Of a stretch of 64,000 nt of DNA, positions 29,999 through 58,219 are shown piece after piece (the first letter of the stretch is position 1; each line of letters starts with the position of its first letter). The notes below the pieces were generated by a model, which was not told the origin of the DNA, made no database searches, and saw only the letters and a program-made list of their open reading frames with translations. Origin of the DNA: Acidobacteriota bacterium (GTDB lineage: Bacteria > Acidobacteriota > Vicinamibacteria > Vicinamibacterales > UBA2999); the NCBI GenBank assembly GCA_963169195.1, contig CAUJDN010000030.1, forward strand, positions 1 to 64,000. Direction: 5' to 3'. The translations under genes were made by a program, and so were the position numbers.

Positions 29999-30904
29999 TC
30001 AGTCCTTCTCGGCCGTCAGCATGCGCCGCACTTCCTGCAGCTCCGCCTTCTTGGCGTCCGACATCTTCGGGTAGCGCAGATCCAGGCCTTCGAGCGCGTG
30101 GTAGACGATGGCGGCCACCGCCAGCCGCGTGAACCACTTGTGGTCGGCCGGGACGATGTGCCAGGGGGCCCACTCGGTACTGGTGTTCGTGAACACGTCC
30201 TCGTAGGCCCGCATGTAGTCGTCCCAGTGAACCCGCTCCTTCGCGTCGTTGACCGACAGCTTCCAGTTCCTGTCCTCGTCATCGATCCGGGCGAGGAACC
30301 GCCGCTTCTGCTCGGCCTTGGAGACATTGAGGAAGAACTTCAGCAGGACGACGCCGTTGTCCACCAGATAACGCTCGAAGTTGTTGATCTCCCGGTAGCG
30401 GCGCTTCCAGATCCCCTTGTCCTTCAGGTGCGCCGGCAACTGCTGCGCAGCGAGGATTTCCTTGTGAACCCGCGTCACCAGGACCTCCTCGTAATACGAG
30501 CGGTTGTGGATGCCGATGCGCCCGCGCTCCGGCAGCGCCCTCATCGAGCGCCACAGGTAGGTGTGGTCGCGCTCTTCGGCCGAGGGCGCCTTGAAGTTGA
30601 ACACCTGGCAGCCCTGCGGGTTCACGCCCGACATGACGTGACGGATGGTGCCGTCCTTCCCCGCCGCGTCCATCGCCTGGAAGACCAGGAGCAACGAGTG
30701 CGTGTCCTGCGCGTACAACACGTTCTGCTGCTTCGACAGCCGGCGGATCCCATCGGCCAGCAGGCTGGAGGCCTCCTTCTCGCCTCGAATGGTGCCGGTC
30801 CAGGCCGGGTCGTACTTCTTCAGGCGAATCCGCGTCCCCGGAGGGGCAACGACGTGCTTCAGCAGCCGCCGGATCCGCTTGGCCTCTTCTTTGGGCGTCA
30901 TCAT
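29999..30904 (-). CDS. ppk2: Polyphosphate kinase 2 family protein
   Basis: A 301-residue PPK2, which transfers phosphate between polyphosphate and a nucleotide. Visible motifs are FQAMDAAGKDGTIRHVMSGV (P-loop region), NPQGCQVFNFKAPSAEERDH with the lid, and the Trp/Arg-rich RIGIHNRSYYEEVLVTRVH segment. Length fits a class I or III single-domain enzyme acting on ADP/AMP or GDP. The start is ATG at 30904 or 30901. No clear ribosome site. Confidence 0.9.
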   Translation of the reverse strand: MMTPKEEAKRIRRLLKHVVAPPGTRIRLKKYDPAWTGTIRGEKEASSLLADGIRRLSKQQNVLYAQDTHSLLLVFQAMDAAGKDGTIRHVMSGVNPQGCQVFNFKAPSAEERDHTYLWRSMRALPERGRIGIHNRSYYEEVLVTRVHKEILAAQQLPAHLKDKGIWKRRYREINNFERYLVDNGVVLLKFFLNVSKAEQKRRFLARIDDEDRNWKLSVNDAKERVHWDDYMRAYEDVFTNTSTEWAPWHIVPADHKWFTRLAVAAIVYHALEGLDLRYPKMSDAKKAELQEVRRMLTAEKD

Positions 30905-30935
30905 GGGTGTCAGACCGCGAGGGACTGGGACCTCG

Positions 30936-31835
30936 TCACAGGCGTGTGGTCCAGTCGGTGGACATGAACCAGTAGTCGTACCGTTCGGTAAGCCAGCCCG
31001 TCTCCTTGTGGTAGGTGAGCCAGGCATCCAGGAAGTTGAGGAGATCCGGGTCCCCCTTCCGAACCGCCAGCGCCGCGCTCGCGGCCTCGAGCTCGCCACC
31101 CTCCGGGAGGAACAACGCGTTGCCGCTGGCCTGGACCATCACACGGACGGCCGGGGACATCACGATGGCCGCATGCGCCTTGCCCTCGAGGACCGGCGCC
31201 AGCGGTTCGTCGTTGATGTCGACCCTGATCAGTCTCGCCCTGGGGAAACGGCGGGCCGCCAGCTCCTCCATGCCCGTCCCCTGGTTGACGACCAGGGAGA
31301 CCTCGGGCCGGTTGAAGTCCTCCGCACGCGTGAAGGTGCCGGCCGTGGCCCGCCCGGCGACGAGGCTGACCGCCCCCTTCGATGTGGCCTGGGTGTAGTT
31401 GACCATCAAGGCGCGCGCGGGTGTGATCCACAGCCCCGATGCGATCACGTCGAAGTGGCCGTCCATCAGGTCGCCGACGATGTGCGGCCAGGAGGTCGGC
31501 ACGATCTCGAGCTCGACGCCCATTTCCTCGGCCAGCTTCCGGCCCAGATCGATGCTGAACCCCATGAGCTCGCCGTCCCGGTCGCGCATCACCCATGGCA
31601 TGGTCGGCGCCACACCCAGGCGCAGGATGCCCCGGCGCTTGATGGTGGCAATCGTGTCCAGGGCCGGCCTCGCATAGACCGGTGGCACGTCGGGCGCCGG
31701 CGGCCGGGGGGCCACGGCCTCGCCGCCGGGATACCCGGGCGAGGGCGGCGATTGAGGGGGCTGCTGGGCGGCCGAGACGACCCCGACGGAGCCGGACAGG
31801 ACCAGCGCCAACAGCGCACCGCGCATGAGCGTCAC
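30936..31835 (-). CDS. Amino-acid-type solute-binding protein
   Basis: A 299-residue periplasmic binding protein of SBP family 3. After the signal peptide (ALLALVLSGSVGVVSAAQ) comes a Pro-rich linker, then IKRRGILRLGVAPTMPWVMRD and GELMGFSIDLGRKLAEEMGVELEIV, followed by FDVIASGLWITPARA. A GTG at 31835 has AGGAGG at good spacing and was chosen over the ATG nine bases on. No ABC permease or ATPase is adjacent, so the transporter partner is unknown; similar orphan proteins serve sensors. Compare the SBP domain fused to a symporter at 33208-35355. Confidence 0.85.
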   Translation of the reverse strand: MTLMRGALLALVLSGSVGVVSAAQQPPQSPPSPGYPGGEAVAPRPPAPDVPPVYARPALDTIATIKRRGILRLGVAPTMPWVMRDRDGELMGFSIDLGRKLAEEMGVELEIVPTSWPHIVGDLMDGHFDVIASGLWITPARALMVNYTQATSKGAVSLVAGRATAGTFTRAEDFNRPEVSLVVNQGTGMEELAARRFPRARLIRVDINDEPLAPVLEGKAHAAIVMSPAVRVMVQASGNALFLPEGGELEAASAALAVRKGDPDLLNFLDAWLTYHKETGWLTERYDYWFMSTDWTTRL

Positions 31836-44362: not shown

Positions 44363-44986
44363 TCAGCCCGAGTGGCCGGAGAGGCCGAGCCGTTCGGCGA
44401 TGCGCACGAGATCGGCTGTGGAGCGGGCGTGCAGCTTCGCCATGACCTTCGCCCGATGGAGCTTGACCGTGCGATCACCGATGCCGAGGTCGATGGCGAT
44501 CTGCTTGTTCAGCTGCCCGCCCACCACGCGAAGCCACACCTCGCGCTGGCGATCGGTCAGGGCAGCAACCCGTGCACGAAGCCCCTCGAGTTCGGACGTC
44601 TGGCGGCGCCGAGCCGTGTCACGACCCAGGGCGTCGGCGACCGCCGCGAACAGCTCGTCCGCCACGACGGGCTTCTGGAGGAAGTCCACAGCACCGTGCT
44701 TCATGGCACGCACGCCGGCCGCCACGTCACCGTGCCCTGTCAGGAAGACGATCGGCGCGGCACATCCCTTTCCGACCAGCAGATCCTGCAGCTCGAGGCC
44801 GCTGGCCCCCGGCAGGCGCAGATCGACGAGCAGGCAGCCGGTCAGGCCGGGTCCGGCCACCGCGAGGAGTTCCTCGGCGGTCGCATAGAGCTCGACCCGA
44901 TGGCCGGCGCCGCCCAGGAGCCGGGCGAGCGACCTCCGCGTCGAGGCATCGTCGTCGACGACATGAACGGCGGGCACGTCGCTCAC
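44363..44986 (-). CDS. FixJ-type response regulator
   Basis: A 207-residue response regulator. The receiver domain has VHVVDDDASTR, the phosphoacceptor D55 in LLVDLRLPG, the T in LTGHGD and K105 in DFLQKPV. The C-terminal LuxR-type HTH is ALTDRQREVWLRVVGGQLNK followed by QIAIDLGIGDRTVKLHRAKVMAKL. The GTG at 44986 overlaps the histidine-kinase stop (GTGA), so kinase and regulator are a coupled pair. Confidence 0.9.
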   Translation of the reverse strand: MSDVPAVHVVDDDASTRRSLARLLGGAGHRVELYATAEELLAVAGPGLTGCLLVDLRLPGASGLELQDLLVGKGCAAPIVFLTGHGDVAAGVRAMKHGAVDFLQKPVVADELFAAVADALGRDTARRRQTSELEGLRARVAALTDRQREVWLRVVGGQLNKQIAIDLGIGDRTVKLHRAKVMAKLHARSTADLVRIAERLGLSGHSG

Positions 44987-47900
44987 GAGCGCTCCCCGGC
45001 CGGTCTCGCGGCCGGCAGTGTCAGCGTCATCGATGCGCCGCCAGACGGCGGGGACTCTGCGCTCAACCGCCCGCCATGCCGCTCGGCGATCGAGCGACAG
45101 ATGGCAAGCCCCACGCCCAGGCCCTCGGGTTTGGTCGTGACGAACGGCTCGAACAGCCGGGCGGCCACGTCCGCGGCGACCCCGGGGCCGTTGTCGCGGA
45201 CGACGAGATCCACGTGCCCGTCGCGCGACGACGTCTCGATACCGATGCGTCGCTCGCCGGCCACGCCGGACAGGGCCTCGCAGGCGTTCACCACCAGGTT
45301 CACGATGATCTGTCCCAACTGGACGCGAAGGCCTTCCACGGGCGGCAGGTCGTCGGCCAACGCGAGTTCGACCTTCACGTGACGGTCCTCGATCTCGCGT
45401 CGAACCACCGGAAGCACTTCCAGCACCAGAGCGGACAGGTCGAGCGACGCGGCCTCCGGACCACGCGCCCGCAGGAACCCACGCAGGCCCTGCACGACCT
45501 GGGACGCGCGATGGGCATCCTCGACGATGTCGGCGAACAGCTGTTCGAGCTCCGCCGGCCGCTGCAGGTACTGCGCGAGGTGGCGCTTGCCGGCTTCCGC
45601 GTTGTTGACGATCGCACCGATCGGCTGGCGAACCTCGTGCGCGATGCTCGCGGCGAGTTCCCCCGCGAGCGCCGCGCGCGACACGTGTTCCAGTTGCGCC
45701 CGAACGGAGGCCATCCGCTCCTCGGCCTGCCGCCGCTCCTCCATCGCGCGCAGTCGGTCCTCGTGCCTGCGCTCGATGGCCCCGATCCGCGCGCGCACGC
45801 CCGCGACGGCCAGCAGGACGACCGCCAACGCTGCGGCGCCGCGAGAGGCCGTGGCCTGCCACCACGCCGGCAGGACCTGGAGTTCCACGACGGCCGGGGC
45901 CCTCGACCAGATACCATCTTCGTTGCGGACGTCGACGAGAAAGCGGTGACGGCCAGGCCCCGGCGGTGTCCAGTCCACGAGGCGGTCGGGCCCGGCGTCA
46001 ACCCAGTCGGGATCGACACCTTCGAATCGAAACCGGAACATCAGCCGTTCCGGATAGTGGAGCTCGAAGGCGGTGAAGCCGATGCGTACCCTGGCCGTCA
46101 GTGGCGGCACCTGGACAACGGATCCCGGCGTGAGCGGCCCACCGTCCGTGCGGACCTCCTCGATGCGAGCGACAGGCGGGGTCGTGTTGAAGGGAAAGGC
46201 GTTCGCGTCGATGACCACCACTCCATCGATGGTCCCGAACCAGAGCCGCCCATCTTCACCCGCGAACCCGGCGGGGCTGCCGAAGTTGGCTTCGGGCACG
46301 CCCCGCTCCTCGCCGAGGAGGACGGGCGCCAGGGCCCGGGCCCGGCCATCCGCCACGTCTTCCAGTGCGCTCCTGTCGACGACCACGACCCCGCGGTTCG
46401 TCGAGATCCACATCCGGCCGCGACCGTCGGCGAGCATCCGCGACACGGCATTGTCGGGCAGCCCCTGATCGACGGTGAGTCGAGCGGCCTGTCCCCCACG
46501 AAGCCGGCCCACGCCGCCCCCGTAGGTGCCAAGCCAGACCGTGCCATCGGGCTCCGGGACGATGTCACGCACCTGTCCCCGTGGCACGGACTCCTGCTGG
46601 CCGAACCGCGATACCTCGCCCCTGAGCACCCGGAACACCTCGCCATCGCCGCCGATCCAGAGGGCGTGGTCCGGTCCCACCACCGCGGACACGAGGGGCG
46701 AGGGCAAGGAGAACTCGTGGAGGACGCGGCCCTGAGGCGAGATGTGCTGCACGACACCGCCCCGCGAGATGACCCAGATCGAGCCGTCCGCGTTCACGGC
46801 AATCGCCCCTTCCTCGGAGGGCAGGCCGGTCGTCAGCGTCCGTGCTTTCAGCGATCGACCGTGCACCCGCATCAGGTCGGGACCCACGCGCGCCCACACG
46901 CTGTCATCGTCGCCCCGGGCGAGGGAAATCTGGCAGGGCGGGTGGGCGACCCCGTGATCGATGGCCCGCATCGCGCCGAAGCTGTCCACGTGATACAGGT
47001 TGCCGCATCCAGCGTCGACGAACCCGCCGCCCCGACCATCCCCGGTCAACCCGCCCACGGCGCCGAGTCCGACTGCCAGCCGTCGTCCCGGCACGCGATT
47101 CACGCGGAACAACCCGGCGCCGGCGACGCCGACCCACACGGCACCGTGCCGGTCGTGCAGCATCGACCTCACGGGGAAGGGCGTGGGCAGACCGAGCGGC
47201 AGGCGCGTCCGCTTCCACGTACCGTCCGAATGCGGCTCCACTCGGGACACGGAATCCGCGGTGGCCACCCAGAGGGACCGGTCACCAGCGGGCGTGACAT
47301 CGAGGATGTCTGCCGCGAACGGCGGCTGGATCTCCAACCACCCCATGTCCCCATCAGCGAGGTAGCCGACGCCTGACTTCAGGCCCAGCCACAACCCACC
47401 GCCGGCGCGAGGGGCCATCGCCATGCGCGCGGCCGTGAGGGGAATGCCCTCTGCCGATGGGTCCCCGAGGTTGACGAGCCCGCGTTCGGACTGGGCCCAG
47501 ACCTCGCCGTTCTCCTGGAGAACCAGCGCCTGGACGAACTGACTCCCCACCCAGGCATGCCTCACGCGCGTCCACGGCTGCCGGCCTTCGGTTCGCCAGA
47601 CGCGGCCATCCGACGACCGGCAGTAGGCGCGGCCGGCCGGGTCGACCGTCAGCTCGAGCGCCTCGAGGGTCGCCATCGGCGGCGGGACGAGCAGGCTCGC
47701 CCGTCCACGCTCGACGCGTCCGAGGTGTCCCTCCTGGCTCAGGAACAGGAACGAGGCCTCGCCCTCGGGCGCGAGGGCAACGATGCGGTTGGCGGGAATC
47801 CCCTCGTCGGCGGCGACGTCCAGGACCTTGAAGACGCTGCCATCGAAGCGCACGAGGCCGCCGAAGGTCGCCAGCCACATCTCGCCGTTCGGCAGGATGA

Positions 47901-48114
47901 GGAGGTCGTTGATCGTGTTCTGGGGCAGGCCCTCGGCCGTTGTCCACTGAACGACGCGATAGTTCTCCCCGGTGCTGGCCTCCTGGAGGTGGCGGGCCCG
48001 TGCGGCGGCGAGCCTCTCACCGGGAAAGAGGCCCACCAGGGCGATGGCTACCGTGAGAAGGCCGGTCCGCGCGCGCGAGACGCGAGACCGGCCATCGTGA
48101 CGGACCGCGGGCAC
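44983..48114 (-). CDS. Propeller-type sensor histidine kinase
   Basis: About 1,043 residues. The N-terminal signal (TGLLTVAIALVGLFPGERLA) precedes a periplasmic two-component regulator propeller with repeats such as GLPQNTINDLLILPNGEMWL and GLPDNAVSRMLADGRGRMWI, then a Y_Y_Y-type beta domain (FRFEGVDPDWVDAGPDRLVDW), one membrane helix, HisKA with SIAHEVRQPIGAIVNNAEAG (His about 825) and a HATPase with VVNACEAL, DNGPGV and GLGVGLAICRS. The start is uncertain: GTG at 48114 is used; the frame runs back to a TTG at 48243. It couples to the FixJ regulator. Confidence 0.87.
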   Translation of the reverse strand: MPAVRHDGRSRVSRARTGLLTVAIALVGLFPGERLAAARARHLQEASTGENYRVVQWTTAEGLPQNTINDLLILPNGEMWLATFGGLVRFDGSVFKVLDVAADEGIPANRIVALAPEGEASFLFLSQEGHLGRVERGRASLLVPPPMATLEALELTVDPAGRAYCRSSDGRVWRTEGRQPWTRVRHAWVGSQFVQALVLQENGEVWAQSERGLVNLGDPSAEGIPLTAARMAMAPRAGGGLWLGLKSGVGYLADGDMGWLEIQPPFAADILDVTPAGDRSLWVATADSVSRVEPHSDGTWKRTRLPLGLPTPFPVRSMLHDRHGAVWVGVAGAGLFRVNRVPGRRLAVGLGAVGGLTGDGRGGGFVDAGCGNLYHVDSFGAMRAIDHGVAHPPCQISLARGDDDSVWARVGPDLMRVHGRSLKARTLTTGLPSEEGAIAVNADGSIWVISRGGVVQHISPQGRVLHEFSLPSPLVSAVVGPDHALWIGGDGEVFRVLRGEVSRFGQQESVPRGQVRDIVPEPDGTVWLGTYGGGVGRLRGGQAARLTVDQGLPDNAVSRMLADGRGRMWISTNRGVVVVDRSALEDVADGRARALAPVLLGEERGVPEANFGSPAGFAGEDGRLWFGTIDGVVVIDANAFPFNTTPPVARIEEVRTDGGPLTPGSVVQVPPLTARVRIGFTAFELHYPERLMFRFRFEGVDPDWVDAGPDRLVDWTPPGPGRHRFLVDVRNEDGIWSRAPAVVELQVLPAWWQATASRGAAALAVVLLAVAGVRARIGAIERRHEDRLRAMEERRQAEERMASVRAQLEHVSRAALAGELAASIAHEVRQPIGAIVNNAEAGKRHLAQYLQRPAELEQLFADIVEDAHRASQVVQGLRGFLRARGPEAASLDLSALVLEVLPVVRREIEDRHVKVELALADDLPPVEGLRVQLGQIIVNLVVNACEALSGVAGERRIGIETSSRDGHVDLVVRDNGPGVAADVAARLFEPFVTTKPEGLGVGLAICRSIAERHGGRLSAESPPSGGASMTLTLPAARPAGERS

Positions 48115-48295
48115 CCTCGGACTGTAACCCAAAGCCGCCGCGATCTCGGGTGAATCCGTTGAAGCCTCGAACGCATCCGTGTCGAAGTCGGACCCGGAGA
48201 TCGAGTCCCCGATCGTTGCGGCGAAGGACGGGCCGAGGAACAAACCGGCCTGCCAGCCATTGCGGTTGTCCGCGGTTGTCCGATGTGAAGTCGTC

Positions 48296-48321: not shown

Positions 48322-50610
48322 TCAGCGAAACACGCGGCCCACGCCGATATAGGTGCGCCACCGGCCGTCGAAATCGGCCGACCCGGCCAGCATGACCGGG
48401 CCGATCAGGGTGTCCATGATCACCCCCGCGCTGACATTGCTTCTCACGGTGGCCAGATCCCGGTCCTCGAAGGCGTCGCCATTCTCCAGCCAGCCTCCGG
48501 CGAAGATCGGGCCGCCGAGGAAATCGGGCAGCCGGCCCAGCTGGCGCAAGTACCCGGCCGTCGCGACGTAGTAGTGGCTGGCCCGCAGTTCGCCGGAGCG
48601 ATAGGCACCGAGGCGGAGGGGTGAGCCCAGGACGAACTTGTAGGTGGGCTGGGCGGTCTTGTCGAAGGAGGTGCCGAACCCACCGTAGAAGAAGACACGG
48701 GTGCGTTCGCCGAGGCTCCAGAAACGACTCATGGTCCCCGACAACTGGTGCATGCGGCCGTCGAGCGGCACGACCTGGTCGCCGACGACACCGTCGAGCC
48801 CGTCCAGCACGCGCAGCCAGCGCACGGAGGCCAGGGTCCCCTTCGTCGGGACCGCGGGGCTGTCCTGCCCGTCGTATCGCCAGACGGCCTGCAGCCCGCT
48901 CTCGCCGCCGCGCAATTCGGGCAGGCGGGGATCGCCAATCTCGAGATCCGCCTCGGTCCGTCCGTAGTACGCCCCCACGCGCAGATCGCTTCGGGTGCCG
49001 ACGTTGGTCCCGATGGTGAGACCCACGCGCGACGTCGTGATGGCGTATTTCGCGATGACCAGGTCGCGACCGAGGCTCTCGGCCGAGTCAGTCACGACGC
49101 TGGCGTAAGGGGCGACGAAGAGCGGGCTGGACCTGACCGGCTCGTAGAGCTCGACGCCCGCGGCCGGATACGAGCCCAGGGTGCCGTCGATGCGCAGCTC
49201 GGAGCCGGACGTGAGCAGGCCATAGGTCAGATATCGGCCCGTCATGTTGATCCGGAAGTCGGTGGACGTCGTGTTCTCCAGGTTCAGGCCGAGCATCATG
49301 AACGGGGGCGCGTAGGGCTTGACGCGGCCCGTCACCAGGACGCCGGAGTCCCCCGCGTCGTTCCTCACGAGGCGCCACGTGATGGTTTCGTACCGATCGA
49401 GGCCCAGGAGCTGCGCGATGTCGGCCTCGAGGGCCGGGACGTCCAGCGCGACGCCGACATGGCGCGGGAGCAGGGCGTTCAGCCGTCGCGCGTCACTGGT
49501 CGAGAACCCCTCGACGGACACGAATGCCGGCACCGGCACGTCGTGCCGGCGCCGGGCCCGGCGGGCCTCCGTCCAGCGATCCCACTCCGACTGGCTCACC
49601 GCGTAGGGCAGCAGCTGGTCCCGCATGGCCTCGGCAGCCTCGTATCCCGCCTCGATGAGGTCGGGACCCCGCCGCCAGTCGAGCGAGCCGAACTCCTTCA
49701 GCGGCACGTCGATGGTCACGTCGGCGGACGCGATGGACGTCCGGGTCGACGCACGCATCATGGCGTCGAGCGTCGCACCGGCCAGGCCCAGCAGCGTGTA
49801 GCTGAGACCCTCCCGATCGGACAGGTCGCCCACGTTGACGGCGATGACGCGGTCGGCCCCCATGGCCCTCACGACGTCCGCCGGCACGTTGTTCATCGCC
49901 CCGCCATCCACCAGCACGCGGCCGTCGAGCTCCACGGGCGGGAAGATGAGGGGCAGCGACATGGTGGCGCGCATGGCCCTGCCAACCGATCCCCGGTCGA
50001 GGACGACCTGGGTCGCGCTGATCAGGTCGACGGCCACCGTACGGAACGGGGTCGGCAGTTGGTCGAAGTGCGTGATGTCCGAGTAAGGGGCGGTGATACG
50101 GCTGATGAGCAGCTCCACCTGCTCGCCGTTGTTCAGCGACGAGGGCGGAACGATCCCGCGCTTCAGGCCGAACTCCAACCGGGACGGGAACACGCGGGTG
50201 TCGGTCTTGCGCCGGATGTTCTTCGAGGCGAAGTTCGACGAACCGAACATCGCGTCCCAGTCGATGGACGCCAGCATCGCATCGAGCTCGGCGGCGTTCA
50301 TGCCCGTGGCGAACGCCCCGCCGATCAGCCCGCCCATGCTGGTGCCGGCAGCCACGTCAATGGGGATCCGGTGCTCCTCCAACCAGCGGATCACGCCGAC
50401 GTGGGCGATGCCCCGGGCGCTGCCTCCGCCGAATGCGACGCCGACGATGGGACGACCTCCCGTCGGCGCGATGCGCGCCCGCTGATCGGCGAGGCCCGCA
50501 GGGTGAGGGGGCGATACCACGGCGGGGCGCTGCACAGGAGCCGCACAGGCGACGGTCAGCGCCGCCAGCGGCAACCAGAGAGGCCATGTCGTCGACCGGG
50601 GGATGCTCAT
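48322..50610 (-). CDS. Patatin-like phospholipase with outer-membrane barrel
   Basis: A 762-residue lipoprotein-type passenger protein. The signal ends TVAC (C22). Residues 55-340 are a patatin domain: GVAFGGGSARGIAHVG (oxyanion loop), GTSMGG with nucleophile S91, and DGGAMNN with the catalytic Asp. A POTRA-like stretch at about 355-430 precedes a C-terminal BamA/Omp85-type barrel ending in YIGVGRVFR. This layout matches type Vd autotransporters (PlpD). It should cleave lipids at or beyond the outer membrane. The ATG at 50610 was chosen with its signal. Confidence 0.88.
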   Translation of the reverse strand: MSIPRSTTWPLWLPLAALTVACAAPVQRPAVVSPPHPAGLADQRARIAPTGGRPIVGVAFGGGSARGIAHVGVIRWLEEHRIPIDVAAGTSMGGLIGGAFATGMNAAELDAMLASIDWDAMFGSSNFASKNIRRKTDTRVFPSRLEFGLKRGIVPPSSLNNGEQVELLISRITAPYSDITHFDQLPTPFRTVAVDLISATQVVLDRGSVGRAMRATMSLPLIFPPVELDGRVLVDGGAMNNVPADVVRAMGADRVIAVNVGDLSDREGLSYTLLGLAGATLDAMMRASTRTSIASADVTIDVPLKEFGSLDWRRGPDLIEAGYEAAEAMRDQLLPYAVSQSEWDRWTEARRARRRHDVPVPAFVSVEGFSTSDARRLNALLPRHVGVALDVPALEADIAQLLGLDRYETITWRLVRNDAGDSGVLVTGRVKPYAPPFMMLGLNLENTTSTDFRINMTGRYLTYGLLTSGSELRIDGTLGSYPAAGVELYEPVRSSPLFVAPYASVVTDSAESLGRDLVIAKYAITTSRVGLTIGTNVGTRSDLRVGAYYGRTEADLEIGDPRLPELRGGESGLQAVWRYDGQDSPAVPTKGTLASVRWLRVLDGLDGVVGDQVVPLDGRMHQLSGTMSRFWSLGERTRVFFYGGFGTSFDKTAQPTYKFVLGSPLRLGAYRSGELRASHYYVATAGYLRQLGRLPDFLGGPIFAGGWLENGDAFEDRDLATVRSNVSAGVIMDTLIGPVMLAGSADFDGRWRTYIGVGRVFR

Positions 50611-50683: not shown

Positions 50684-53260
50684 CTAGAAGGGGTAGCCGA
50701 AACCAAAGAAGACGCGTGTCCCCTCCTTGCCACGCGCCGCCATCGCGTGCAGCGTGACCGGCGTGAACAGCGGCTGCAGCATCAAGCCGCCGCCGACGGA
50801 CGTGTGCAGGGTGTCGGATGTCTCTCCGCTCACCCACACCCGTCCCGCGTCAGCGAAGACGGTCACGCCCAGTCGGACGGGGACCAGCAGCGGAACCGTG
50901 CCCAGCCAGCTGCCGATGCCGACGCTGCCGTACGCCGAGGAGTCTCCAAGGAACCGGTGAGACAGGTACCCGTGATTCGTGCGCCCCCCGAGGCTGGCCG
51001 CATCGAACCACGCGTAATCCCCCTCCACCCGTCGCCCGCCCACTCTCGCCATCGCGTGCAGCCGGGGCACCCCGACGTAGGCCGCCACCTCGCCATCGAG
51101 ACCGCCGTACGACGCATCCACGCTCCACGCCTGCGGCGTGAAGAAGCCAGCGAGCGTGAAGCGAAGCCCCGTGATCTTCCGGTTCGCCTGATCCACCGAG
51201 AGGCCCTGTGACAGGTCCGCGCTGCCGTGAATCGCCGGGCGCTCGCGCGAGTCGAAGTGCAGGCCGGCGCGCACCGTCACGAGCCCGAAGTCCCCTGTGC
51301 CGAGTGGGGCCTGTTCGCCGAGGACAGTGCCATCGCCCGTCGCGGATTGCGAGTACCGCACCTCCGGGCCGCCGAACACCTCGAAACGACGGCCCAGTTC
51401 GAAGCGGACCGTGGGATGGACGGTCAGCACGTCGGAACGGGTCCGGTAGCGCGCGCGATCCGCCTCACGCGGGCTGTCGTTCCCCAGCCCGAAGAAGTTG
51501 TAGCGGTCGATGCCCGAGCCATGAGCCTCGACCTGGAAGACCACGTTCGACGCCGGGCGGCGAAACGTGCCGACGTATTCCACCTTGCCCGTGTTGTCGC
51601 CGACGGCATAGCCCCCGCGAATCGACTGAACCGACGCTGCGGGCTCGGTCCGGAAGCCCCACGCGGTTCGCGTCATCCCGTAGCCGAGAAACAGGCGGTA
51701 GTCCGGGCTGTACACCACGATGGGCCCCGAGGTGGACCATCGGCCGAAGTTCCTGGCCTCCAGCCACGGGGCCTCCTCGACGCGCGAGGCGTTCACCCAG
51801 AGGTCCTGACGCACTCGGGTGCCGCGCCCCCGCGCCACCTCGATGGTCCCGGCGTCGCGCCAGACGTCGGTGCCACCGCTCGAGGAATCGTCCACGACGT
51901 CGGCACCGCCGCCGCCGATGACGCGCACGCGGATGGGACCGCCGGCCGGCCCCGTTCGGGTCACACGGTCATCTCCGCCGTGCAGGTAGATGCGGATGTC
52001 GTCGGATTCCGAGGCCAGGAAGCGGCGGCGGTAGTACGGGGCCGCATCTCCACCGGCCACCGCGATCGACACGTCGATGGAATCGTCTGCGCCGCGGGCG
52101 ACCGTGACGGTCTCGGCTCGATCGGTGGCGTGCACGTCCACCGTCTCGGCCTCGTAGCGATACGCGCGGAGCACGTAGGCGACGAGGCCCGCCCGCCGGG
52201 TCCTCAGCGCGGCAATCTTGTCGGCGCCGTCGATCGCGAACCACTCGGGAGGCAGCTGACGCAGGGCCCGCTCGATGACCTCGTCAGTGAGGCGTCCGGC
52301 CACCTCCGCCGCCACCGTCTCCCAGGCCGCCCGGTCCAGGTCGGCCAGCAACCAGCGGTCCACCTCGAAGCTGTTGCGCAGCGGTCCTTCCAGGTGCTTC
52401 GTGTACTCGTCGCTGAACTTCAGGAACTGCGGTGCGTGCGAGCGCATCGCCTGGCTCACCAGCCCGTCGTGGCCGACGAGCACGAAATCGAAGTCCTCGG
52501 GCAGCGGCTGCAGGAGGGGCTTGCCTGGAATGCGCATCCAGCGCCATTGGCCCGCATGCCGATCGTAGTTGTCCACGAACAGGTCGAGCACCCGCGCGCG
52601 GAGCAGCGCGCGGCTGTCGACGCGGTTCTCGGGCCCGGCGAGCCACCGCTTCCACAGCTCCGTGGACGAGATGATCTCGGTCGCGCCCATGAACCCCGGT
52701 GTGCCCCCGGGCCCCGGCAGGGGGAACTCGTCGATGGTCCCCACCTCATGGGCAAACTGCCCGCGGAACTCTCCCAGCGCAGCGTCGTCGGGCATGACGA
52801 CGATCCGCGGGGTGGTGAAGGGGACGCCCACGGCCTCGGCGAGAGGGGGAAAGACGAGCGCGGCACCGGGGTGGGTGCCGGACGTCTGATCCTGGGCCAT
52901 CTGTCCCGGCCAGCGGTCACGCCAGACTGCGGGCAGGATGCGCTCGGGGTGCTTGTGCAGGGAGCGGAACGTGTAGGACCGGCCGTCGGCACCGCGCAGC
53001 GCCAGCCCGAGGCTCTGGGCCTGGCCCACGACCCTGACCGGAGTCAGCCCGCCGCCGGTCGCCCGGAGGTCAAGGACCGGAACGTCAATCGGCGTCGTCC
53101 AGAGTTCCCGGTACCCCGCGCCGAACCAGAGCTTCCTGGCACCGCCCGCGTCGTACTGCGGGCCAACCACCACGCGCTGCGTGTCCTGGGCCTCAGCGCC
53201 GGTGGCCATCGCCAGGCTGCCTGCCACGCACACGACCGCCGCCACCCAGCTCACACGCAT
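50684..53260 (-). CDS. Exported kinase-like domain fused to an outer-membrane barrel
   Basis: An 858-residue exported protein. The signal ends GAEA (about 24). Residues about 75-290 resemble the protein-kinase-like module seen N-terminal to Omp85-type barrels in some Bacteroidetes: YTFRSLHKHPER with a candidate ATP-binding K103, RDQTSGTHPGAAL, the catalytic loop VDNYDRHAGQWRW (D233, H235) and PEDFDFV (D256/D258). Beta domains follow (about 380-520), then a barrel with many aromatic strands ending VFFGFGYPF. The ATG at 53260 follows GGAGG at 7 bp. The kinase-like call is by motif only. Confidence 0.7.
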   Translation of the reverse strand: MRVSWVAAVVCVAGSLAMATGAEAQDTQRVVVGPQYDAGGARKLWFGAGYRELWTTPIDVPVLDLRATGGGLTPVRVVGQAQSLGLALRGADGRSYTFRSLHKHPERILPAVWRDRWPGQMAQDQTSGTHPGAALVFPPLAEAVGVPFTTPRIVVMPDDAALGEFRGQFAHEVGTIDEFPLPGPGGTPGFMGATEIISSTELWKRWLAGPENRVDSRALLRARVLDLFVDNYDRHAGQWRWMRIPGKPLLQPLPEDFDFVLVGHDGLVSQAMRSHAPQFLKFSDEYTKHLEGPLRNSFEVDRWLLADLDRAAWETVAAEVAGRLTDEVIERALRQLPPEWFAIDGADKIAALRTRRAGLVAYVLRAYRYEAETVDVHATDRAETVTVARGADDSIDVSIAVAGGDAAPYYRRRFLASESDDIRIYLHGGDDRVTRTGPAGGPIRVRVIGGGGADVVDDSSSGGTDVWRDAGTIEVARGRGTRVRQDLWVNASRVEEAPWLEARNFGRWSTSGPIVVYSPDYRLFLGYGMTRTAWGFRTEPAASVQSIRGGYAVGDNTGKVEYVGTFRRPASNVVFQVEAHGSGIDRYNFFGLGNDSPREADRARYRTRSDVLTVHPTVRFELGRRFEVFGGPEVRYSQSATGDGTVLGEQAPLGTGDFGLVTVRAGLHFDSRERPAIHGSADLSQGLSVDQANRKITGLRFTLAGFFTPQAWSVDASYGGLDGEVAAYVGVPRLHAMARVGGRRVEGDYAWFDAASLGGRTNHGYLSHRFLGDSSAYGSVGIGSWLGTVPLLVPVRLGVTVFADAGRVWVSGETSDTLHTSVGGGLMLQPLFTPVTLHAMAARGKEGTRVFFGFGYPF

Positions 53261-53308
53261 TTTCGTTCCTCCCGCAAATCTCGATCCTCGACCTCCGGGA
53301 GGGGCGGC

Positions 53309-53327
53309 GGCTATCCGTATTGCGCCA
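53309..53327 (-). promoter_or_regulatory. Upstream motif, site B
   Basis: Plus-strand GGCTATCCGTATTGCGCCA, 17 of 19 identical to site A. It lies 48 bp before the start of the kinase-like gene; a GAGGAT hexamer lies 19 bp further on. Confidence 0.5.
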
Positions 53328-53330
53328 CAG

Positions 53331-53594
53331 CAACTTGGCGGGGCCGCCCGTCGGCCGGGGGGCCGCGTTTCGCGGGGGGCCCGACCGGGCCCGACCGGGC
53401 CGCCCGTCGGGCGCTGGGCCGCGCTTCGCGCGGGGGCCTCGCCGCTCACGCGGCTCGGTGGGCGGGCCTTCGGCCCGTGGGGTTGCCCACACGCCGCAGG
53501 CGTGCCCACCGCGACGCAGCCCACGCGCCGGAGGCGCGCCCACGCGGCGCAGCCGCGCCTTCCCGAAGCGCCGCCCACGCGGCGCAGCCGCGCC
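53331..53594. repeat. Hairpin-repeat array R4
   Basis: Another copy of the compound unit (53416-53543), flanked by further palindromes such as CGCGGCGCAGCCGCG. The unit shows GGGCCGCGCTTCGCGCGG, CGGCTCGGTGGGCGGGCC, CCTTCGG.CCCGTGG and ACGCCGCAGGCGTGCCC in the same order as in R3. It occupies the gene-free 334-bp gap between the kinase-like gene and the PP2C regulator. Open frames crossing it on either strand are not supported. Confidence 0.8.
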
Positions 53595-54764
53595 CTACAG
53601 CCCAATCACCAGCAGCGTCTGATCGTCCTCCGCCTCGCGGCCGCCGGCAAAGGCCTCGATGTCCTCGGTCAGCCGCTCGACGATGACGCCGGGAGCGAGC
53701 GCGCCCACGCGGGCCAGCGAGGCGGTGAGGCGGTCCCGATCGTAGAGCGCGCCGTCCGGCGCCTGCCGATCGGTGATGCCATCGGTGTACAGCACGAGAC
53801 GGTCGCCGGGGACGAGCGCCTGCTCCGGCACCGCGGCCTCGTCCAGGTCCCTGAACAGCAGCATCATCCCGCTGGCCGCGGCCGCCTGCGCGACCCGATC
53901 GCCCTCGTGAACCAGGAGGGGCAGGGGATGGCCCGCGCAGACCGCACGCCAGGAGCGCCGCTCGAGATCGAGCACGCCGTAGACCGCCGTCGCGAACATG
54001 GCCGTGTCCCAGAGGAACCGGAAGTGCCGGTTCACGTGGTGGAGCACGGCCAGCGGATCGTCCGGGATGCCCGGGAACGTGTGCAGCACGGCCCGGATCA
54101 TCGCCATCACGATGGCGGCCGGCGCGCCGTGCCCCGAGACGTCGGCGACCATTACGCCGAACCGGTGCGCGTCGATGGGGATGACGTCGTAGTAGTCGCC
54201 GCCGGCATGTCGGCTGGTCTGGTAGAAGGCCGCGAACTGCGCCTGCGGATGCGCCGGCATCGAGCGCGGGAGCAGCAGCCGCTGCATGTCGGCGGCGTTG
54301 GCCAGCTCCCGGTCCAGCCGGTCGCGGCTGCGCCGGAGCTCGCGCTCGAGGTGCTGCCGGGTCAGGTGATTGGCGACGCGCGCCAGCACTTCCTCCGCCT
54401 GGATCGGCTTGGTGATGTAGTCGGCGGCGCCGATGCTGAGCCCGGACACCTTGTCGGACACCTCGCCGAGCGCCGACAGGAAGATGACGACGGCCTCGCG
54501 CGTTTCAGGCCGGTCCTTGAGGGCCCGGCAGACCTCGAACCCGTCCATGTCGGGCATCATCACGTCGAGCAGGACGAGGTCGGGCCGCGCGCGCCGGGCG
54601 ATGTCGAGCGCGGCCCGACCACTGGTGGCCGCGAGGATGCGGTGGCCGCCCGCCTGGAGCGTGCGGACCAGCACCTGGAGGTTCACCGGCGTGTCGTCCA
54701 CCAGCAGGATGGTGGCGGCGGGCCACGGCTGCACGCCCGACGCGGCGGCGTCAGGCCAGGTCAT
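53595..54764 (-). CDS. Response regulator with PP2C/SpoIIE phosphatase output
   Basis: A 389-residue regulator. The receiver domain (about 18-135) has LLVDDTPVN and phosphoacceptor D67 in LLDVMMPDMDG, and K at TKPIQ. A short coiled linker leads to a SpoIIE-type phosphatase with RHAGGDYYDVIPIDAHRFG, VADVSGHGAPAA, VLYTDGITDRQ and AEDDQTLLVIGL, which together give the metal-binding aspartates. Such proteins dephosphorylate anti-anti-sigma factors. It overlaps the upstream hybrid kinase gene by 14 bp. Confidence 0.9.
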   Translation of the reverse strand: MTWPDAAASGVQPWPAATILLVDDTPVNLQVLVRTLQAGGHRILAATSGRAALDIARRARPDLVLLDVMMPDMDGFEVCRALKDRPETREAVVIFLSALGEVSDKVSGLSIGAADYITKPIQAEEVLARVANHLTRQHLERELRRSRDRLDRELANAADMQRLLLPRSMPAHPQAQFAAFYQTSRHAGGDYYDVIPIDAHRFGVMVADVSGHGAPAAIVMAMIRAVLHTFPGIPDDPLAVLHHVNRHFRFLWDTAMFATAVYGVLDLERRSWRAVCAGHPLPLLVHEGDRVAQAAAASGMMLLFRDLDEAAVPEQALVPGDRLVLYTDGITDRQAPDGALYDRDRLTASLARVGALAPGVIVERLTEDIEAFAGGREAEDDQTLLVIGL

Positions 54765-57558
54765 CGGGCTCCCTCCGCCGACCGAGCAGCCTGTCGGCCG
54801 CCTTCCTGAGCCCCTCGAAGTCGAACTGCGCCGTGAGCCGTGCGATGCGATGGCCCAGTGCCGCTTCGCTTTCGTCGCCCGCGACGAGCTCCTGCGCCAG
54901 CGCCTCGAGGTCGGTGACGCTGCCAATCCCCGCGGCGTCGTGCAGCCGCCGCGCGAGCCCGACGCGGCGCGAGTGGTCCGACAGCTCCGGCTCGTCGGGC
55001 ACCTCGGGCGGCGCGCTGACCGTGAAGCGGAGGCCGAGGTGCTCGCGCATGGCCGCGAACAGCGACTCGGCGCGAACCGGCTTCGAGAGGTAGGCGACGC
55101 AGCCCGCCTCGTGCGCCGCCTGGCGCGTGTCGCCGAAGGCGCTGGCCGTGACGGCAATCACGGGGATGGCGGCCACGGCGGCGTCGCTCTTCAGGAGGCG
55201 CGTGACCTCGAGGCCGTCGAGATCGCCCATCCGCAGATCCATGAAGACGACGTCGGGCCGGTGCCGGCGCACGAGGCCCAGCGCCTCGTGACCCCCGGCG
55301 GCGGTGATGACCCGCACGCCGGCGCTCTCGAGCAGGCGCGCCAGGATGCGGCGGTTCACGGTGCTGTCGTCCACCACCAGCGCCGTGAGGTCCTCGCCCG
55401 GCGCGAGGCGGGCGTCGAGCGGCGGTCCGTCGGCCCCGTCGGCCGCCGCGCCCATCCCGGCTCCGTCGCCAGCCGGCACGAGCGGCAACGTGAAGAAGAA
55501 GCGGCTGCCCTCGCCCGGGACGCTCTCGACGCGGAGATCGTCCCCCATCGTCTGGATGAGATGGCGGCTGATGGTGAGCCCGAGCCCGGTGCCGCCGGCC
55601 GCGGCGCCCTCGCGCGTCTGGGTGAACGCCTCGAAGATGCGCGTGAGCGCCTCGGGCTCGATGCCGACACCGGTGTCGCTCACCTCGAAATGCAGCGTGG
55701 CGTCGTCCACGGCCTCGATGCCGAGGCGGACCTCGCCCTGATGGGTGAACTTGACGGCATTGCCCAGCAGGTTCAGCAGCACCTGCCGCAGGTGCCGGCC
55801 GTCGAGGCACACGTGCCGCGGCACGTCGGGGGCGATGGTCATGGTCAGCAGCAGGCCCTTGCGGCGGGCGGCCTCGGCCACGACGTACTTCAGCTCGATG
55901 ATGAGCTGCGCCAGGTCGGTGGCCGTTGCCTCGATGTCGAGGCGCCCGGCTTCGATGCGCGAGAGGTCCAGCACGTCGTTGATGAGGTCCAGCAGGTGCG
56001 CGCCGCACCTGGCAATGGCCTCGAGGGCGTCGCGCTGCGCGGCGTTCAGCGTGCGGTCCCGCTGCAGCAGCTGGGTGTAGCCCAGCACGCCGTTGAGCGG
56101 CGTCCGCAGCTCGTGGCTCATGGCCGCGAGGAACTCGCTCTTCGCGCGGGTGGCCGCCTCGGCCGACTCCTTCGCGGCGCGCAGCTGCGCGTCCCGCTCC
56201 CGCCGCTCGGTGATGTCGCGGATGAACGCGCCGAAGAAGTACCCCCCGGCCATCGGCATGGGCGACGTGATGGTGATCTCGATCGGGAACTCCCGGCCGG
56301 AGCGATGGATGGCGGCCAGCTCCAGGCGCTGGTTGACGACCGGCGCGTCCCCCGTGTCGAGGAAGCGGCGCATGCCCTGGTGGTGCGCCTCGCGGTAGGC
56401 GGGCGGGACGATGGTCTCCGCCATGTCGCGGCCGAGCGCCTCCTCGCGCGTCCACCCGAACACGGCCTCCGCCTGCGCGTTCCAGGTGACGATGCGGCCG
56501 GCCGTGTCGGCGCCGACGAAGGCGTCGTGGGCCGTGTCCACGATGAGGCGCGCGCGCGCCTCGCTGTCGGCCAGCCGCGCGAGGGCCTCGCGCCGCTCCT
56601 GGTCCGCCAGCGCCGTCGCGATGAGATTGGCGGTGGAGACGGCGAAGTTCTGCTCGTCCACGGTCCACGCACGCGGGGAGCCGACGTGCTCGGCGCAGAG
56701 CACGCCCACCATGCGGTCGTCCTGGCGGAGCGGGACGTCAAGCATCGCGCCAATCCGGTTGGGCCCCAGGTAGGCCTGCCCGAATCCCCGCGTTCGCGGG
56801 TCGGCGTGTGCATCGTCGGCGGCGATGACGCGGTCGCGCTCGAGCGCCTCGAAGTAGGACGGCGCGTCCTCGCGGCGGATGACGGCCCCGGACTCGTGGC
56901 TCTGCGACGCGTGGCGATGGAGCCCGAGGCACCGGATGGCCTGGCGATCCTCGTCCATCAGCCAGAGGCTGAGGCGCTCGACCTGCAGCGTGCGTGCGGA
57001 GGCGGCGAGGATGCCGCGCAGGCGATCCTCGAAGCAGCAGCCGCTCGAGTCGGTCTGGCGCGCGGTCAGTTCGGTGAGCGCGCTGCTCTGCGCGACCAGC
57101 CGCGCCTCGCTGGCCTTCAGGATCCGCTCGGCGATCACCTGGTCGGTGATGTCGCTGAACACCGTGAGGATGGCCGGCTCGCCGCCGAAGGTGACGCGGC
57201 GCGACGACGCGCTCGCCCAGAAGGTCTCGCCCGTCGGGCGCCTCAGCTCGAACCGCAGGTGGTCGGCCCGGCCCTCGCGGGCCACCTGCTCGGCCAGCCT
57301 GCGCCGCTCCTCGGGGCGGACGTAGTAGTCCGGCGCGTGCCGGCCCGCCGCTTCGTCCTGCGGGATGCCGAAGACGTCGGACGTACGCTGGTTGATGGCG
57401 AGCACGAGGTGATCCCGCAGGCGCGTGACGACCGCCGGGAACGGGCTCGCGTCGAACAGCGGGAAGAAGAGGCCGTCATCCCCCGAGGCCGCACGGGAGC
57501 CGGTCCCGACCATCGGTGCCGGCGCAGGCGAAGCCGAAGGCGGGTCGAAGTCGGACAT
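54751..57558 (-). CDS. Hybrid sensor histidine kinase (PAS-GAF-PAS-HisKA-HATPase-REC)
   Basis: A 935-residue cytoplasmic kinase with no clear membrane helix. It carries a PAS domain (about 35-150, ending VFSDITDQ), a GAF domain (about 165-330, DVPLRQDDRMVGVLC), a second PAS (about 345-460), HisKA (FLAAMSHELRTPLNGVLGYT), HATPase (LLNLLGNAVKFT, FEVSDTGVGI, GTGLGLTIS), a receiver (ALVVDDSTVNRR, VFMDLRMGDLDG, YLSKPV) and a C-terminal helical segment that may be a phosphotransfer domain. The PAS and GAF sensors suggest a cytoplasmic ligand. The ATG at 57558 opens the frame. Confidence 0.9.
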   Translation of the reverse strand: MSDFDPPSASPAPAPMVGTGSRAASGDDGLFFPLFDASPFPAVVTRLRDHLVLAINQRTSDVFGIPQDEAAGRHAPDYYVRPEERRRLAEQVAREGRADHLRFELRRPTGETFWASASSRRVTFGGEPAILTVFSDITDQVIAERILKASEARLVAQSSALTELTARQTDSSGCCFEDRLRGILAASARTLQVERLSLWLMDEDRQAIRCLGLHRHASQSHESGAVIRREDAPSYFEALERDRVIAADDAHADPRTRGFGQAYLGPNRIGAMLDVPLRQDDRMVGVLCAEHVGSPRAWTVDEQNFAVSTANLIATALADQERREALARLADSEARARLIVDTAHDAFVGADTAGRIVTWNAQAEAVFGWTREEALGRDMAETIVPPAYREAHHQGMRRFLDTGDAPVVNQRLELAAIHRSGREFPIEITITSPMPMAGGYFFGAFIRDITERRERDAQLRAAKESAEAATRAKSEFLAAMSHELRTPLNGVLGYTQLLQRDRTLNAAQRDALEAIARCGAHLLDLINDVLDLSRIEAGRLDIEATATDLAQLIIELKYVVAEAARRKGLLLTMTIAPDVPRHVCLDGRHLRQVLLNLLGNAVKFTHQGEVRLGIEAVDDATLHFEVSDTGVGIEPEALTRIFEAFTQTREGAAAGGTGLGLTISRHLIQTMGDDLRVESVPGEGSRFFFTLPLVPAGDGAGMGAAADGADGPPLDARLAPGEDLTALVVDDSTVNRRILARLLESAGVRVITAAGGHEALGLVRRHRPDVVFMDLRMGDLDGLEVTRLLKSDAAVAAIPVIAVTASAFGDTRQAAHEAGCVAYLSKPVRAESLFAAMREHLGLRFTVSAPPEVPDEPELSDHSRRVGLARRLHDAAGIGSVTDLEALAQELVAGDESEAALGHRIARLTAQFDFEGLRKAADRLLGRRREPDDLA

Positions 57559-57718
57559 GGTCGAGGTGCGCACACGGCAGGTGTCGCCGTGGACGGACGC
57601 GCAGCGAGCCAAGGTACCTGCCGGTGAGCAAGGCGTCAAGCAGGGCCGCGCGGGGAGGCCGCGCGCGGGGGCTTGGGGCCCTGGGGCTTGGGTCGCTCTT
57701 CGTGGTGTCGTGTCGTCC

Positions 57719-58219
57719 TCACAGCAGGCGGCGCGTCCCCTGCTCCAGGTCGAGCAACGCGCGCTTCGTGGGAAGTCCCCCGCCAAAGCCCGTGAGCGAG
57801 CCGTTGGCGCCAATCACGCGGTGACACGGGATGATGATGGCGATGGGGTTGGCGCCATTCGCGGCGCCGACCGCGCGCACGGCCGTTGGCGCGTCGATGC
57901 GGAGCGCCAGCTCGCCGTAGCTGACGGTCTGCCCGTAGGGGATGGCCTGGAGCTCGTGCCACACCCGGCGCTGAAACGATGTGCCCGCGGGCGTCACCGG
58001 AGTGCTGAACCTGGTGAGGCGCCCCGCAAAGTACGCGTCCAGTTCGCGACGCACGGGATCGAGCACGCCGCCCGTATCCGGCGACCAGGCCTCGTCTGGT
58101 TCCGGGCATCCGTCCTGCACGAAGGCCAGCACCCGCAGTCCCCTCGTGTCCCCGGCGAGCATCAGCGGGCCGATGGGGCTGTCGATGGTGCGATGGACCA
58201 CGGAGGTTTGGGGAACCAC
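57719..58219 (-). CDS. ogt: Methylated-DNA--protein-cysteine methyltransferase
   Basis: A 166-residue O6-alkylguanine transferase that repairs alkylated guanine by moving the alkyl group to its own cysteine. The active site is PCHRVI with C132; the helix-turn-helix [24 protein letters not shown] and the [22 protein letters not shown] segment are standard. The start is GTG at 58219; TATGAT (58232-58227) ends seven bases before it. It lies 160 bp from the hybrid kinase start, with no gene between. Confidence 0.92.

Follow-up and report, generated by a model that had tools for sequence, protein, structure and literature searches.

A widespread predicted kinase-fold domain carried on an Omp85-type barrel, linked in one clade to genes for an NTT-type ATP/ADP carrier and polyphosphate kinase 2

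CotH kinases (PF08757), which have been studied in spore coats, have a kinase fold and are not known to carry a barrel. CtkA and the HipA-type kinases are likewise not known to be joined to a barrel, nor are the type II phosphatidylinositol (PI) 4-kinases, which are eukaryotic lipid kinases. Fam20C combines a kinase fold with export, and in PlpD-type proteins an N-terminal enzyme domain, a patatin, sits on a 16-stranded Omp85-type barrel. To our knowledge the periplasm has no evident ATP, and it is mainly for this reason that extracytoplasmic phosphorylation in Gram-negative bacteria is little known. Here we analyse a 64,000-nucleotide stretch of DNA (termed the window; contig CAUJDN010000030.1, positions 1 to 64,000, of the Acidobacteriota bacterium assembly GCA_963169195.1), in which one gene encodes a protein that is predicted to join an N-terminal, probably exported, domain of kinase fold to a C-terminal Omp85-type barrel (Table 1). 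We term it the kinase-barrel protein. In one clade of its family, the gene is linked to genes for an NTT-type ATP/ADP carrier and for polyphosphate kinase 2 (PPK2), and this gene neighbourhood is the best clue to ATP supply. A literature search, mainly of listings and passages, found no description of a kinase-Omp85 protein or of an exported kinase fed by an NTT carrier.

Family models do not name the protein. At E ≤ 10 the window protein has zero matches in Pfam, including CotH, HipA_2 (PF20613), Fam20C (PF06702) and PI3_PI4_kinase (PF00454), and zero in PHROGs; its kinase domain has zero matches in NCBIfam, and phmmer of the PDB with the window protein also gave zero. This bears out the original prediction that the family has no assigned function, as do the copies in Hymenobacter, which carry the annotation 'hypothetical protein'. 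Among 81 relatives, Pfam CotH matched two, at best with E 0.078 and under the gathering threshold, which we keep as a weak hint; all other scattered single-member matches in Pfam and NCBIfam were discarded as chance.

The AlphaFold2 model of residues 26-395, built from an alignment of 81 sequences, has a predicted local distance difference test score (pLDDT) of 93.0 and a predicted template modelling score (pTM) of 0.92, and it shows the bilobal fold of the protein-kinase-like (atypical kinase) superfamily. Foldseek gave 675 matches in the PDB at E ≤ 10, 33 of them at E ≤ 1e-3, and the matches listed down to E 1e-3 are all kinases or kinase-fold proteins. CtkA (1.2e-6), PI4KII-alpha (3.1e-6) and HipA (7.1e-6) lead, and CotH (5.5e-5) and Fam20C (4kqa, 5.8e-5) follow. 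In VIA comparisons, where 7-8 is the typical best Z of a model that has no clear match, PI4KII-beta (Z 14.5, 263 aligned residues, root-mean-square deviation (rmsd) 4.8, 9% identity over the aligned part), CotH (5jda; Z 14.4, 253 aligned, rmsd 4.2) and CtkA (Z 14.1, 242 aligned, rmsd 4.6) are level as the top matches of the model. Moreover, the best PDB match of a sequence-only profile is again CtkA (E 0.046), whose DRH catalytic loop is aligned on a DRH of the kinase-barrel domain. By the family models tested, the domain is an unnamed variant of the atypical kinases, and not CotH, HipA, Fam20 or PI4K. The claim of a kinase-like domain was to fall if the predicted fold was unlike kinases; the fold is kinase-like at high confidence, with CotH, HipA and Fam20C, the three folds named for comparison, among the matches.

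The window protein contains the motifs FRSLHKHP (R99 and K103), VDNYDRHAGQWRW (D233-R234-H235) and PEDFDFV (D256 and D258), whose conservation was read from two alignments. A1 holds 12 sequences collected on overall protein similarity, without the use of motifs, whereas the 81 rows of A2, from which the profile above was made, were fetched with patterns on two of these motifs, which inflates the counts for the two. In A2, every row has R99, K103, R234, D256 and D258 (81/81), and 80 of the 81 have D233. In A1, D256 and D258 are found in 12/12 rows, D233 in 10/12, and R99 and K103 in all 11 rows with letters at those positions. Since the motifs are conserved in A1, their presence is not due to chance. 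D233, aligned to the DRH of CtkA, corresponds to the catalytic-loop Asp. Of the two invariant residues that may be the DFG-type metal Asp, D258 appears likelier than D256, because of a comparison with the metal-Asp motifs of Fam20C and PI4K and with the LIDHSRSF motif of the family c4 described below. R99 lies within an N-lobe strand, with K103 four residues on, and may occupy the usual place of the ATP lysine. The catalytic loop and metal Asp of the original prediction therefore stand in that the motifs are present and D233 and D256 conserved, and its choice of D256 as the metal ligand would probably give way to D258. Likewise, its candidate ATP lysine in RSLHKHP, K103, is invariant, and R99 may hold that position instead. 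Three consensus residues of the family differ in the window copy, which has N in place of D231 and F in place of both R257 and Q259. It shares the form DNYDRH with L024 (L numbers denote loci, G numbers genomes), which is its closest relative among the matches listed (65% in the domain), and N at position 231 is also found in the GNMDRH-like catalytic loop of Fam20C.

In the model of the full mature protein (AlphaFold2; pLDDT 91.1, pTM 0.89), the 16 strands of the barrel span residues 482-830 in model numbering, and the stretch 347-481 consists of strands with zero helices. Its barrel aligns with TamA (8us1) at Z 22.9 (306 aligned, rmsd 3.7), and NCBIfam Omp85 matches the last 102 residues (757-858) with E 3.1e-8, under the family cut-off. 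The predicted structure is thus that of a 16-stranded C-terminal barrel of the TamA/BamA type of the Omp85 superfamily, in agreement with the C-terminal barrel claimed from the sequence. POTRA domains contain helices; at the place that they occupy in Omp85 proteins, the kinase-barrel protein is predicted to have a beta stalk free of helices, and the name 'Omp85-type barrel' is as far as the assignment goes. Unlike the type Vd protein PlpD, it has no patatin domain (Pfam, E ≤ 10) and carries a kinase fold in that place. Judged by eye, residues 1-24 look like a signal peptide with AEA at its end and QD after it, so that the domain, like Fam20C, would be exported. The original picture of an exported kinase-like domain on an outer-membrane barrel is in keeping with the models of both parts and with this reading. 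According to a published study, the patatin domain of PlpD stays periplasmic (PMC11116518). Because PlpD is the closest studied architecture, the kinase domain can by analogy be placed in the periplasm as well.

The carrier encoded in the window belongs to the NTT carriers of free-living bacteria (PF03219), with 62.7 bits in Pfam TLC against a curated cut-off of 21. Among 93 kinase-barrel loci (short loci replaced by longer versions, the window itself excluded), an NTT gene lies within 6.5 kb in seven, all of them among the 40 loci from outside the Bacteroidota: L104 (G374), L108 (G262), L011 (G074), L024, L026, L029 and L030. Each was confirmed as PF03219, the gene of G074 in stretch L135. 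NTT is the next gene in six of the seven, and in L026 a PPK2 gene stands between. In L024 an orthologue of the window NTT gene is the immediate, divergent neighbour of the kinase-barrel gene, and the two carriers share 57.7% identity. The clusters of L026 and G262 also contain PPK2, and in G074 the PPK2 gene directly follows the C-terminal piece of the kinase-barrel gene. A tree of 92 domains, in which L001 is the window itself and which omits L018 and the two contig-end copies L010 and L016 (residues 161 onwards), unites the window and all seven NTT loci in one 12-row clade with a support of 100/99. The four members of this clade without an NTT label comprise two on short contigs (3.95 and 5.5 kb) and two with long flanks.

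We propose, with a probability of about 0.62, that the kinase-barrel protein is an active, exported atypical kinase on an outer-membrane barrel, which faces the periplasm and in its own clade is fed with ATP by the NTT carrier. After export, the C-terminal barrel would insert into the outer membrane, and the kinase-fold domain would face the periplasm on its beta-rich stalk. There it would move phosphate, rather than AMP, from ATP to an envelope substrate, with D233 acting as the base and D258, together with D256, binding the metal. In the clade of the window, an inner-membrane NTT-type carrier would release ATP from the cytoplasm in exchange for the ADP that the kinase produces, and PPK2 may help to keep ATP charged. 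Such an exchange is attractive because a periplasmic kinase yields the very ADP that an ATP/ADP exchanger imports. In a broader and more tentative form, to which we give somewhat less than even odds, NTT carriers of free-living bacteria would be the ATP supply of exported kinases, with recharging by PPK2 and at least three coupled families (kinase-barrel, c4 and c1).

The families c4 and c1 were found in a reverse look at 20 stretches around orthologues of the window NTT without a kinase-barrel gene nearby, hand-picked from the higher-scoring places listed. In eight of these stretches c1 stands beside the NTT gene, and in five c4 does; the N-termini of both suggest export. The profile of c4, a 275-aa family, matches Fam20A, Fam20C and Fam20B-type structures (E 8.2e-6 to 6e-5), and c4 is accompanied by an exported calcineurin-like phosphatase (c5). 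This bacterial Fam20-like protein is separate and barrel-free, and Fam20C has no sequence-level match to the kinase-barrel domain. The c1 family (510-570 aa) has K-F-D-P and D-F-G-S motifs, is often directly beside NTT and lies within 10 kb of NTT/TLC genes at at least 22 of 83 places. Of the kinase-barrel loci searched for the two families, only G262 has c1 and none has c4. Examples of c4 are L167:5743-6579:- and L165:3444-4265:+, and three of its five loci (L163-L167) have SdiA-regulated/phytase-like genes. Examples of c1 are L148:9129-10766:+, L159:6270-7802:- and L108:1448-3016:-, and the genome of the window has one copy on another contig (G000:C88). After the profile search of the PDB, c1 was dropped as an established kinase and kept as 'exported, possibly HipA-like'.

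A number of observations weigh against the proposed kinase and its supply. Foldseek TM-scores are moderate, at about 0.4, and D233 is replaced in three copies (L022, GKH; L023, SRR; L095, GRH). The window NTT scores far below the cut-off of the NCBIfam model TIGR00769 (NTP/NDP exchange transporter; 48.2 against 387.2 bits) and is 14 kb away from the kinase-barrel gene rather than adjacent to it, with PPK2 at 20 kb. No NTT lies within 6.5 kb in the two long-flanked members of the clade, L006 and L007 (represented by L107 and L106), and none of the NTT matches listed is in G087. Outside the 12-member clade, none of the kinase-barrel loci examined has an NTT, and other members would therefore get ATP another way or need none. 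Both c1 and c4 are missing from seven of the 20 NTT stretches, the HipA_2 match of c1 is weak (0.0057, in one of three members scanned), and the c1 profile found no kinase in the PDB, the rows returned being pyruvate carboxylase at E 0.12. Finally, a paper on these carriers treats their function in free-living bacteria as an open question, and its main text does not contain the words kinase and periplasm (PMC5381601).

A serious possibility, though we think it doubtful, is that the NTT neighbour is a nucleotide scavenger or another carrier of the major facilitator superfamily type, unrelated to ATP supply, and that its linkage is inherited hitch-hiking. All seven NTT loci are of one clade and do not represent seven independent events. 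In the sample of 396 genomes from the phylum of the window, NTT homologues occur in 153, mostly without a kinase-barrel gene, compared to 8 of the 9 genomes with a kinase-domain match (among the matches listed; Fisher p 0.0027). A binomial estimate, in which we generously set NTT genes at 3 per 4 Mb, expects 0.4 adjacent NTT loci in 40, and seven were seen; both figures ignore kinship, and shared descent makes the binomial one only a guide. Against mere hitch-hiking, the linkage in the clade is kept across Acidobacteriota, Myxococcota and Pseudomonadota, and genes for this type of carrier adjoin two further families of exported kinase-like proteins elsewhere, in different genomes. The link with NTT also bears on the chemistry. 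The domain might transfer AMP, as the kinase-fold protein SelO does, or glutamate, or it might phosphorylate a lipid or a sugar in place of a protein. The PI4KII lipid kinases at the top of the VIA matches, tied with CotH and CtkA, fit such a target, as do the exported SdiA-regulated/phytase-like neighbours at 30 of the 93 loci, which hint at phosphorylated small molecules. We nevertheless regard another chemistry or target as unlikely: characterised members of the NTT family exchange ATP for ADP, and the link therefore suits a reaction that makes ADP.

Two further alternatives are less probable still. The domain might be an inactive pseudokinase, which has retained its fold and may still bind nucleotides, and its role might be that of a structural or sensing platform; plug or gating domains are common on barrels. 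The three copies that have lost the catalytic Asp, and the three positions at which the window copy is off consensus, would agree with this. The near-invariance of D233, D256, D258, R99 and K103, not only in the motif-biased A2 but also in the less biased A1, argues against it, as does the genetic linkage to ATP-related genes. The inactive scaffold that the original prediction left as an option is thus less likely, the catalytic residues being kept in nearly all relatives, though it does fit L022 (NZ_CP037921.1), L023 (NZ_CP094537.1) and L095; these are candidate pseudokinases, and two of the three are on Hymenobacter plasmids. Equally improbable is a type Vd-like autotransport, in which the barrel carries the kinase domain to the cell surface to act on outside partners. 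An N-terminal enzyme domain on an Omp85-type barrel is what patatin autotransporters have, and a patatin-Omp85 gene is next door. ATP is scarce outside the cell, however, the NTT link needs the periplasm, and the periplasmic patatin domain of PlpD, cited above, speaks for the same side. Surface proteins, which the original prediction suggested as targets, are a conjectural substrate.

Within its own lineage the gene is sporadic, since matches are few: 14 of the 396 genomes in the phylum sample match at E ≤ 1e-3, nine of them in the kinase domain, and the 59 nearest genomes (own included) have three matches, namely the window gene and two weak barrel-only ones. Relatives, on a wider scale, are widespread. 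A scan of a species-genome collection yielded at least 568 confirmed relatives, the best 80 of which (L024-L103) come from Acidobacteriota, Gemmatimonadota, Latescibacterota, KSB1, Poribacteria and Myxococcota, from one Pseudomonadota record and from many Bacteroidota. There are two main architectures, one of about 860 aa and one of about 1200 aa with an extra N-terminal part. Ten of these long N-terminal extensions were scanned; Pfam Metallophos matched six (L043, L058, L100, L073, L021 and L022; two of the six under the cut-off) and none of the other four. Many Bacteroidota copies have a fused metallophosphoesterase. A second kinase-barrel copy in the genome G374 (L015, G374:C88) is broken by an in-frame TAG.

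Other neighbours differ between the host groups. At the 53 loci sorted manually as Bacteroidota, which include one Rhodothermales record, we counted metallophosphoesterase (fused or near) 38 times, HD-PycTM 25, SdiA-regulated 18, PPK1 10 and NTT 0 times. The corresponding numbers for the 40 other loci are SdiA-regulated 12, DUF4956 10, metallophosphoesterase 10, NTT 7, PPK1 6, PPK2 2 and HD-PycTM 2, which brings DUF4956 to 10/93 and PPK1 to 16/93 overall. The HD domain near the metallophosphoesterase-kinase-barrel genes of Bacteroidota is joined to PycTM, of the Pycsar effector type (e.g. L099:8555-9769:+), and adenylate cyclase genes also recur near these genes. In seven loci (L027, L032, L034, L038, L033, L039 and L048) the kinase-barrel gene forms a cluster with DUF4956 and an SdiA-regulated/phytase-like lipoprotein, at times with a stand-alone metallophosphoesterase and PPK1. 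An operon of CotH with DUF4956 and a polyphosphate polymerase has been published for Gram-positives, according to passages of that work (PMC7112168), and the company of the kinase-barrel family, near DUF4956 and polyphosphate genes, therefore resembles that of CotH. PAP2 was rejected as a frequent neighbour; its cluster was contaminated by antisense open reading frames (ORFs) of high GC content, and direct tblastn found it at only four loci.

In the window, a PlpD-like patatin-Omp85 gene follows the kinase-barrel gene and is likely co-transcribed with it. It was rejected as a conserved partner, the window and L034 being the only two places where such a gene adjoins the kinase-barrel gene. Two-component genes on the minus strand flank the pair: downstream a propeller-type histidine kinase (44986-48243), and upstream a response regulator-SpoIIE phosphatase and a PAS/GAF hybrid histidine kinase (53598-55157 and 54754-57813). 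Large plus-strand ORFs over the kinase-barrel gene (e.g. 51227-53686) were dismissed as antisense ORFs of a gene with 70% GC.

Table 1. Features of the kinase-barrel gene and associated genes in the window.
Feature	Coordinates	Strand	Basis and remarks
Gene for kinase-like domain and Omp85-type barrel	50684..53260	-	ORF, 858 aa + stop, ATG start
Shine-Dalgarno-like gggagg ahead of ATG 53260	53268..53273	-	Sequence
Putative signal peptide, residues 1-24	53189..53260	-	Reading of sequence
Predicted kinase-fold domain, residues about 26-371	52148..53185	-	AlphaFold2 models and fold searches
R99...K103, invariant basic residues in and just after an N-lobe strand; candidate ATP phosphate contacts	52952..52966	-	Alignments
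Catalytic loop VDNYDRHAGQWRW, residues 229-241; D233 putative catalytic base	52538..52576	-	Alignments, CtkA DRH match
Metal-binding motif PEDFDFV (putative), residues 254-260 (D256, D258)	52481..52501	-	Alignments
Predicted beta-rich linker domain, residues about 373-484, helix-free, not POTRA-like	51809..52144	-	Model
Predicted 16-stranded barrel, residues 507-858, TamA/BamA-like	50687..51742	-	Model, fold searches, NCBIfam
Patatin + Omp85 gene (PlpD-like)	48322..50610	-	Pfam; 73 bp downstream of the kinase-barrel gene, same strand
NTT/TLC-type ATP/ADP carrier gene, 437 aa	35375..36688	-	Pfam TLC, 3.9e-17
Polyphosphate kinase 2 gene	29999..31099	-	Pfam PPK2, 5.1e-67

A widespread, unnamed family that joins a predicted kinase fold to a barrel, and that has a conserved link in one clade to an ATP/ADP-type carrier and a polyphosphate kinase, and elsewhere to phosphatases and polyphosphate kinase, makes extracytoplasmic phosphorylation in Gram-negative bacteria directly testable. 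The link to NTT can itself be tested and raises the interest of the kinase-barrel protein. It also provides a functional idea for the NTT carriers of free-living bacteria, whose roles the paper cited above describes as open (PMC5381601). If true, supply by NTT would answer two questions at once: where extracytoplasmic enzymes get their ATP, and what NTT carriers are for in free-living bacteria.

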